Source: Salsipaludibacter albus (GTDB lineage Bacteria; Actinomycetota; Nitriliruptoria; Nitriliruptorales; Nitriliruptoraceae). Taken from it: DNA of 64,000 bases. A program made the position numbers and the translations under genes. The stretch is from NCBI RefSeq assembly GCF_019798055.1, contig NZ_JAHOPH010000012.1, positions 1 through 64,000 on the forward strand, given 5' to 3'. Of this stretch, positions 60,125 through 62,923 are shown piece by piece (the first letter of the stretch is position 1; every line of letters begins with the position of its first letter). Below the pieces are notes generated by a model that did not search any database, was not told the origin of the DNA, and saw only the letters and a list, made by a program, of their open reading frames with translations.

Positions 60125-61408
60125 ATGCTGGCAGGCCGAGGTGGAGGGCCGCACTTCGTGACGACGTCGACGGTCGGCGACGAGGACCGCCGTGCGGGGC
60201 TGAGGGCCGCGCGACGTCGGGCCACGGGCCTGCTCGTGGTCGTGACCGCGGTCTTCGCCGCGACCTTCCTGGTGGACGAGACCACCCTGGTCGGGTTCGT
60301 GCGGGCCACCGCCGAGGCGGCGATGGTGGGCGGGCTGGCCGACTGGTTCGCCGTGGTCGCCCTGTTCCGCCACCCTCTGGGCATCCCGATTCCCCACACG
60401 GCCGTGATCAGCCAGTCCCGCGACGGCCTGGGCGCGAACCTCGGCACGTTCGTGGAGGACCAGCTGCTGGACCCGCAGGTGGTCGCCGAGCGGCTGCGTG
60501 CCGCCGACCTGGCCGGGCGGGTCGGGGCGTGGCTGCGGGTGCCGGCCAACGCCGAGCGGGTCGCTGGCTCGGTCGCCACGACGCTGGCGACGGTGCTGGA
60601 CGGGCTGGACCGTCGCGCAGTGGCCGACGACCTGGCGGAGCTGGCCGCCCGGGGACTTGCTGCCATGCCGGTGGCCGACCTGGCCGGCCGGGGCCTCGCG
60701 GCGGCGATCGCCGAGGACCAGCACCAGGAAGTGCTGACCGCCGCGATCCGTGGGGTCCGCCAGGCGCTGGACGACCATCGCGCCGTGCTGCGCGCTCGGC
60801 TCGGCCGCGAGTCGCCGTGGTGGGTGCCGCCGGCGGTCGACGACGTCGTCTACGACCGCGCGGCCGACGCCCTGCAGCGGTTCCTGGGTGAGCTGGCCGA
60901 GGATCCCGACCACGAGCTGCGCCGCTCGGTCGACGACCAGCTGCAGGTGCTGGTCGTGCGACTGCGCAGCGACCCGGAGGTCGCCGCCCGGCTCGCCGAG
61001 CGGGTCGACGACCTCGCCAACCGCGACGAGGTCCAGGCGTGGGCGACGACCACGGCCGAGCACCTGGTCGAGGCGATGGCCAGCTCGGCGCTGGACGACC
61101 AGTCCCAGGTCCGGGACCGCCTGACCCGGGCGATCACGACCCTGGGCGAGCAACTGACCACGGACCCACAGTTGCGACACCGGGTCGACGAGTGGATCAC
61201 CGACCTGGCCCCCATGATCGCCGACGCCAGTCGTCGCGAGGTCGGCCGGATCATCGCCGACACCGTGCAGGGCTGGGACCTCGAGGACACCTCCAGCCGG
61301 CTCGAACTGTGGCTCGGCCGTGACCTCCAGTGGGTCCGCATCAACGGCACCCTGGTCGGCGGCCTGGTCGGACTCGTCCTCCACACCATCACCGTCCTCG
61401 CCACCTGA
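60125..61408 (+). CDS. DUF445 membrane protein
   Basis: A 427-residue protein. Hydrophobic helices ([17 protein letters not shown] and [21 protein letters not shown]) start it, with the DUF445 signature [20 protein letters not shown] just after. A 280-residue helical region follows and a final membrane helix ([18 protein letters not shown]) ends it. The TAGTGT box at 60110 lies 9 nt before ATG 60125; GTG 60158 is an alternative start. Function unknown. Confidence 0.9.
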
Positions 61409-61529
61409 CGGCCGGTCCCCCCCCCGACGCCCCGCCGAGAAACCCCGTCCCCGCCCCGAGCGTGATGGCTCAGTGCAACAGTCCGCACGATCCCATCACG
61501 GTCGGCGAGTCGGTGCACGAGACCAGGCA

Positions 61530-61557: not shown

Positions 61558-61563
61558 GACAGG

Positions 61564-61605
61564 AAAAAGGTGGAGCCCCGGCGCTTCTCAGCAGTCCGGG
61601 GCTCC
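61564..61605 (-). terminator. Intrinsic terminator of the structured RNA
   Basis: On the minus strand GGAGCCCCGG, a 14-nt loop and CCGGGGCTCC (61605-61572) are followed by ACCTTTTT. This is the only hairpin plus T-run terminator noticed in the window. Confidence 0.85.
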
Positions 61606-62049
61606 GGCGGGGACGGCTTGGCGCTGTCCGGTCTCGAAGCCCCGTGAGGGGCGAGCCCGGCGCAGCGGCTTGGCGCCTCCGCAGACCAGGTCCTACGTCT
61701 GCCGTCGTCCGGCCCGAAGGCCGTCCTCCAGCATCCGTGGCCCCCGAAGGAGCCGCTGTGGACCCAGCCGCGCCGATCCTTCCGGGCCGAAGCCCTTCCA
61801 GCCGACGCTTTGCCAAACTCCAGCGCAGTGGACCTTGGCTCGGCGGCTCCCCTCCGAAGAGGGACTCCGCCTGCAGGAACCTCTGCGCGGCTCCTGCGGT
61901 CTCCGGTGGTGTTGCCACCCTCGGCGACTGGTTGGAACAGTAGCCGACGACCCCCCTGGCCTGTCCAGTCCTCGACGGGAAATGCTCGCTTTTGGAGACG
62001 TCGTGCGGTATGGCCGCACACTTTCCCACAACCCTGCACGGACCCCCCG
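61606..62049 (-). ncRNA. Structured non-coding RNA of unrecognised family
   Basis: The minus strand of this region folds into many perfect short stems. Four UUCG tetraloops: 61710-61723, 61739-61754, 61784-61795, 61850-61863. One GCAA (GNRA) loop: 61908-61919. Other stems: 61639-61652, 61659-61677, 61873-61897, 61926-61970, 62003-62019 nested in 61977-62027. UUCG and GNRA loops form only in the minus-strand RNA, and it ends in a T-run terminator. TTCACA-N17-TAGCAC (-10 at 62061-62056) is a weak promoter guess, giving a start near 62049. The GAGGAAAGTC core of RNase P RNA and the tRNA-like ends of tmRNA were not found. No coding frame fits. Confidence 0.65.
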
Positions 62050-62061
62050 TTCCATGTGCTA

Positions 62062-62407
62062 ACGACGGCGCACGATGGTGTGAAATGCAAGTTCGTCACT
62101 GAGCTCGAACGTGGCGTTCTCCGTCCTCTGTGGGGCGTGTTCGCCGCCGTCCAGTCCACCGCCCCACGAGCTCGACGACCGCCGACGGCATTCCACATGT
62201 CTCGTCCTTCGGCCAGTGTCCGTCCGGTGGGTCCGATACGCTCGCCGGTGGCCAGGTGGGGCCTGTCACGCTGTCGACCCAGGTCACCTCGCACGCGGAA
62301 CGGGCGCACCGCCATCCCCCGAAACTCCCCGGCGATCGTCCACGCGCTCGGGGCCGGCGTGCTCCATCGCGGTCGCCCACACTGCCCCCAACGCCTCGGA
62401 GCCTCGC
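62062..62407. other. Intergenic region between the structured RNA and carD
   Basis: About 350 bp; the part near 62062-62110 is less GC-rich and should hold the divergent promoters. A TACGCT box at 62237-62242 could be the carD -10, leaving a leader of about 165 nt. Nothing else is recognised; open frames here look like chance. Confidence 0.4.
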
Positions 62408-62923
62408 TTGTCGCTCACCTACGCCGTCGGAGACACCGTCATCCACCCCCACCACGGGGCCGCCACGATCGACGACGTGGAGCAACGAGAACTCAACGGC
62501 GACCAGGTCGAGTACGTCGTCCTGACCTCCCCCTTCAACGACCTCACCCTCAAGGTTCCGGTGTCACGGGTCGAGGACGTCGGGATCCGGGCGTGCATGT
62601 CGACAGAGCGCCTCACCGAGGTGGTCGCGGTGCTCGAGGACGAGCCCACCCCGCAGAAGGGGCACTGGTCCCGCCGCTTGAAGCGCAACCAGTCCCGCAT
62701 GCGCTCCGGTGAGCCGGCGAAGCTCGCCATGGTCGTCCGCGACCTGACCGCCAAGCTGAACACCAAGGGCCTGTCCCCGGCCGAACGCCGCATCCACCGG
62801 ACCTCGCGACGCATGCTGCACGGCGAGATCGCTGCCGTCGTGGACGGCGGCGCCGAGGCTGCCGACGCGCTGCTCGACGAGGCCCTGTTGCGTCACATGG
62901 CCGACGACGACACCGAGGACTGA
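62408..62923 (+). CDS. carD: CarD/CdnL-family RNA polymerase-binding regulator
   Basis: TTG 62408 with GGAG 6 nt upstream gives 171 residues, close to the usual 160. The Tudor-like RNA polymerase-binding domain is LTYAVGDTVIHPHHGAATID, followed by EYVVL and DLTLKVPVSRVEDVGIR. The helical DNA-binding part has HWSRRLKRNQSRM (the conserved Trp) and MVVRDLTAKLNTKGLSPAER. CarD stabilises open promoter complexes in actinobacteria. The extended N-terminal frame looks non-coding. Confidence 0.93.
   Translation: MSLTYAVGDTVIHPHHGAATIDDVEQRELNGDQVEYVVLTSPFNDLTLKVPVSRVEDVGIRACMSTERLTEVVAVLEDEPTPQKGHWSRRLKRNQSRMRSGEPAKLAMVVRDLTAKLNTKGLSPAERRIHRTSRRMLHGEIAAVVDGGAEAADALLDEALLRHMADDDTED

Follow-up and report, generated by a model that had tools for sequence, protein, structure and literature searches.

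A candidate structured RNA gene beside carD in Salsipaludibacter albus

Does the hairpin-rich DNA beside a carD-family gene of Salsipaludibacter albus hold an RNA gene of its own and, if so, what kind of RNA would it specify? The window analysed here, a stretch of 64,000 nucleotides, belongs to contig C4 of the 4.2-Mb draft genome (G000), and an earlier note on it had proposed a structured RNA of about 490 nt at 61563-62049 on the minus strand. The structured RNA largely holds up, but its length does not. Our comparison partner was a second species of the genus, the metagenome assembly Nitriliruptorales LH_M21 (G001), which gives two sequences in all. Conservation between them begins at about 61999, while 62000-62099 is just 46% identical, so that an edge at 62049 lies too far out. 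The conserved block starts just upstream of promoter-like boxes, TGGACA-N19-TACTGT, themselves conserved at 61967-61937, and we therefore place the start near 61930 and predict a transcript about 367 nt long. The predicted ncRNA gene thus occupies 61564..61930 on the minus strand, its 5' end set by the -10 box and its 3' end by a T-run, and the rest of the proposed 490 nt is promoter and spacer. On its downstream side lies a convergent DUF445 protein gene (60125-61408, plus strand) and on the other the CarD-family gene (62411-62923, plus strand; Pfam CarD_TRCF_RID and CarD_C).

The candidate promoter (61937..61967, minus strand) consists of a -35 box TGGACA at 61967-61962, a 19-nt spacer and a -10 box TACTGT at 61942-61937, and LH_M21 presents TGGACA-N18-TAGTGT at the aligned place. 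The boxes are imperfect and the spacer is long; the candidate falls below the threshold of a simple consensus scan, which called no promoter there. Upstream of the -35 box a putative conserved element, AGCGAGCATTT (61980..61990, minus strand), recurs as an identical 11-mer in LH_M21. The 9-mer GCGAGCATT is common to this upstream stretch (61980-61990) and to the region upstream of the RNase P RNA gene (L067), possibly as a shared upstream element or else by chance. At the other end of the predicted gene, the T-run terminator that had been read on the minus strand is confirmed as an intrinsic terminator at 61564..61605, in which a perfect 10-bp stem (61572-61581 with 61596-61605, inverted repeat I8) enclosing a 14-nt loop with a GCU-GAGA-AGC mini-hairpin is followed by ACC-TTTTT, the T tail (61568-61564) starting 3 nt after the stem. 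The LH_M21 contig breaks inside this hairpin (positions 1-6 of L058 are the contig start), and just the 5' half of the terminator is present there. A separate near-perfect inverted repeat at 61456-61505, with 13-nt arms 24 nt apart, lies just after the DUF445 stop codon and is perhaps the DUF445 terminator or another structured element.

The earlier note had proposed aligning a related genome at the carD locus, and that alignment was made here. Identity to LH_M21 is 79.5% over the RNA and 75% over 61929-61999, against 53% in the spacer at 62100-62410 and 55.7% at the four-fold degenerate sites of carD, whose coding sequence as a whole is 83% identical. On these identities the predicted RNA is kept by selection in the sister species, above the neutral level. 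Either strand carries long open frames, which a GC content of 70% leads one to expect, and these could be taken for a small protein gene or a piece of a coding frame, but the substitutions are spread evenly over the three reading phases (23/22/25), the indels relative to LH_M21 are of 1, 2 or 3 nt and break the frame, and the two minus-strand ORFs tested have no Pfam match. A coding role is accordingly hard to credit at all, and judged by this pattern of change the putative gene is non-coding.

When the RNAs of the two species are folded separately, hairpins H1-H6 and H8 come out in one order and the arrays largely agree, although the global closing helices are not the same in the two folds. 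All are on the minus strand. H1 (61898..61928), a hairpin with a GCAA loop of the GNRA type, folds in both species and forms part of covariance model R1. It is followed by H2 (61873..61897), whose loop GCGCAGA (61888-61882) is invariant above a stem showing replacements of A-U and of G-U by G-C, and by H3 (61842..61871), a UUCG-capped hairpin in which double changes align at two pairs (C-G/U-A and U-A/C-G) around a 2-nt indel. H4 (61813..61838) carries the loop CUGCGC (61828-61823) and an A-U to G-C change in its stem. H5 (61770..61808), capped by UUCG or in LH_M21 by UCCG, is the least conserved arm; its geometry is not alike in the two species, and a G-C to A-U double change lies beside its loop. 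H6 (61684..61769) is a three-way junction, predicted separately in both species, with a 10-bp closing stem, an arm 6a capped by UUCG and an arm 6b capped by UUCG (UCCG in LH_M21) that contains an invariant GA/GA internal loop; its G-U/Watson-Crick changes preserve pairing. H7 (61662..61682, loop GCCAA) shows two G-C/G-U exchanges that keep pairing, and in LH_M21 the trimmed RNA adopts an alternative minimum-free-energy pairing while a longer stretch forms the same hairpin. H8 (61628..61660), with a UCAC loop and a CUU bulge, folds in both species.

The minimum-free-energy fold does contain the ten hairpin loops that had been counted as a minimum, but they are not all perfect, several stems being mismatched, and where one GNRA loop had been noticed there are two, the GCAA near the 5' end and the GAGA within the terminator loop. 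The claim of four UUCG caps formed on the minus strand alone proved exact: counting stems of 4 bp or longer, the minus strand packs four UUCG-capped hairpins into 141 nt, the plus strand of this region has none, and elsewhere on the minus strand of the window a 487-nt stretch never holds more than one. The folding energy of the minus strand at 61562-61930 gives z -5.3 against dinucleotide shuffles; a 501-nt stretch gives z -4.0 on the minus strand and an unremarkable -1.6 on the plus strand. Energy alone is not diagnostic for this locus, since other GC-rich windows also reach z about -5 in a sliding-window background scan made with few shuffles.

In a further test, pairs that one species' sequence predicts by itself were tried on the second, and the null came from shuffling letters within base classes. 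Local pairs survived substitution in 52% of cases against 35% expected (p 0.002) and in 64% against 42% (p 0.0005), with six double changes in local pairs against 1.6-1.7 expected (p about 0.003). The same test gave no excess of double changes in carD, used as a control, and the 3' part of the RNA (model R2) has no double changes. Among curated helices 81/81 pairs are kept in both species, a figure biased upwards by the picking of those helices from the alignment itself, and with partners slid by 1-3 columns 27-52% of cells are kept. The covariation is suggestive, and with two sequences lies below the reach of a formal test. Because most stems are palindromic, the plus-strand fold passes part of the same pair test, and the strand is decided instead by the UUCG loops, two of which become UCCG in LH_M21, still of the UNCG type, by seven pair-keeping exchanges through G-U pairs, paired on the minus strand only, and by the terminator. 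That GC-rich intergenic sequence should fold here by chance, with no real gene, would be consistent with the strong z-scores of high-GC windows elsewhere, but seems very unlikely in view of a constraint well above neutral from promoter to terminator, the clustering of UUCG loops and the pair-preserving changes.

The suggestion that the RNA belongs to no known family was checked by a covariance search with Rfam 15, in which no family reached its gathering threshold anywhere in the window; the best at the locus is a single chance-level match (E 0.84), of sX12 to the terminator stem. The earlier note could not match the RNA to RNase P RNA, tmRNA or SRP RNA, and indeed none matches at the locus and the genome's own copies lie elsewhere, on C27, C5 and C18; the first two are similar to the ncRNA in length. 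Nor would the RNA be a cis-regulatory leader or riboswitch: no co-directional gene lies directly downstream, where the terminator is followed by the convergent DUF445 gene on the opposite strand. Taken together, the promoter-like boxes, the terminator, the constraint above neutral, the pair-preserving changes and the lack of both a coding signal and an Rfam match give good support to the large folded RNA of the earlier note as a gene of its own, and we hold it highly probable that the minus strand of 61564-61930 is a genuine stand-alone non-coding RNA gene, whose transcription we infer.

GCGCAGA in H2 and CUGCGC in H4 are the sole large hairpin loops in the 5' half, and GCGCAG of the former and CUGCGC of the latter form a 6-bp Watson-Crick match, invariant in both species, that was found in 0/200 shuffled sequences. 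The two loops could be the halves of a predicted kissing contact, within one molecule or between two. The presence of a stand-alone gene with promoter-like boxes and a terminator, and of some invariant loops such as GCCAA and UCAC, would also suit an antisense sRNA acting in trans, with exposed loops pairing to mRNAs. This we consider rather unlikely, as the RNA is mostly paired, its loops are mainly UUCG or GNRA, its two large invariant loops match each other, and its unpaired bases vary more than its stems (27/106 against 43/235), which favours a structural role. That the RNA works through its fold and not through antisense pairing is the likelier reading, though we put it at no more than about even odds.

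The neighbourhood offers less guidance than had been supposed. CarD had been thought a meaningful neighbour, a view that the comparison does not sustain: the ncRNA start and the divergent carD lie about 480 bp apart, the spacer between them is mostly unconserved, the linkage is seen in two species, and the carD at 62411-62923 is a second copy specific to the genus, with 85% identity to its LH_M21 counterpart and about 40-44% to the nearest full-length sequences of the family. A further CarD, at about 40%, is present in both congeners; the other CarD in the S. albus genome is at C1:86119, with a weaker third match at C1:319360. The order RNA-carD-methyltransferase-ankyrin protein (names read from the ORFs) is kept in LH_M21. 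DUF445 is not a stable neighbour, as no homologue turned up in any of the family's other 34 genomes, sister species included; the DUF445 gene may be a recent arrival, and a DUF445-linked synteny search of those 34 genomes gave no further RNA loci. A CarD-linked role for the RNA is speculation.

One form that such a role could take is that of a 6S/Ms1-like RNA that binds RNA polymerase; the protein CarD does so as well, and its gene adjoins the RNA gene in both species. 6S RNA is a rod of about 180 nt with a bubble, a stand-alone structured RNA like the ncRNA but unlike it in shape and length, and the genome has no match to RF00013; the earlier note, too, could not match the RNA to 6S. That absence counts in favour of a 6S/Ms1-like RNA, and so does Ms1, a sequence-divergent RNAP-binding RNA of ~300 nt reported from many Actinobacteria, with a 6S-like central bubble and typical HAD hydrolase or oxidoreductase flanking genes (PMC9130861). 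Ms1 resembles the ncRNA in being stand-alone, a few hundred nucleotides long, actinobacterial and too fast in divergence for sequence search. However, the independent folds of both species give an array of about ten hairpins in place of a rod with a central bubble, the ncRNA neighbours are DUF445 and CarD, and the RNA-carD spacer is unconserved, so that we think a 6S/Ms1-like RNA quite improbable.

The distribution of the predicted RNA is narrow. BLAST, the two covariance models R1 and R2 and pattern scans of 66 genomes of the class and 396 of the phylum found it in S. albus and LH_M21 only; nothing credible lay outside the genus, with strict filters, which can lose weak matches, applied wherever a model search spanned more than 40 genomes. 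Several candidates were rejected, three of them as coding sequence. A BLAST match in G010 (L003/L063) and a pattern match to H1 in L060 were each read as the 3' end of a protein-coding frame containing a palindromic stretch, for which reason an R1 match of 30 bits in L063 was likewise discarded; an R2 match of 33.8 bits (E 8e-4) in G023 overlaps a long ORF, read as a xylulokinase; weak BLAST pieces across the class (E 0.001-0.01) were scattered over the query and treated as chance; and pattern matches on viral contigs came without a convincing covariance match. Plasmid and phage collections gave no match, and our literature search found no paper tying Nitriliruptor to such an RNA. The putative RNA is a new structured family, restricted so far to one genus and two genomes.

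The explanation that we favour overall, and regard as probable, is an independent monocistronic ncRNA gene acting in trans via its fold. Transcription would run from the sigma-70-like promoter, with RNA polymerase starting at about 61930, to the intrinsic terminator near 61564 and yield a monocistronic RNA of about 367 nt. This RNA would fold into a compact hairpin array including the three-way junction and the H2-H4 kissing contact, and would most likely owe its action in trans to its three-dimensional shape, serving as a scaffold or as the core of an RNP, and not to mRNA pairing or a leader role. The predicted gene architecture and fold are the parts of this scheme that sequence and comparison support.

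To our knowledge, stand-alone structured bacterial RNAs beyond a few universal ones are rare. In this ncRNA, a sparsely sampled actinobacterial class offers an Rfam-unmatched example that has a defined gene and, as predictions, helices and one specific tertiary contact; what it can tell is limited by a family known from two genomes only. Its kind, the stand-alone structured bacterial RNA, is already known; the family is new, in one genus so far. A lineage-specific large ornate RNA in the style of OLE, ROOL and GOLLD, forming an RNA-only or protein-capped particle, would account for the compact hairpin packing, the tetraloops and a kissing match that is possibly intra- or intermolecular. ROOL and GOLLD, however, are phage- or prophage-borne, and the ncRNA is absent from the phage, plasmid and viral collections as searched; it is also shorter than all three and has no Rfam covariance match at its locus, which leaves this reading unlikely. 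The known ornate RNAs combine a dense architecture with kissing loops and a function unknown or partly known, are larger (a 659-nt ROOL, GOLLD over 800 nt in many members), and in several cases proved to form large RNA assemblies (PMC12286853). It is conceivable, and we advance it tentatively, that this Nitriliruptorales genus harbours a new class of bacterial RNA, compact in its tertiary structure and with the H2-H4 kissing contact, working as an RNP core or RNA particle, which would share with OLE, ROOL and GOLLD the dense packing with kissing loops that is predicted here from sequence.
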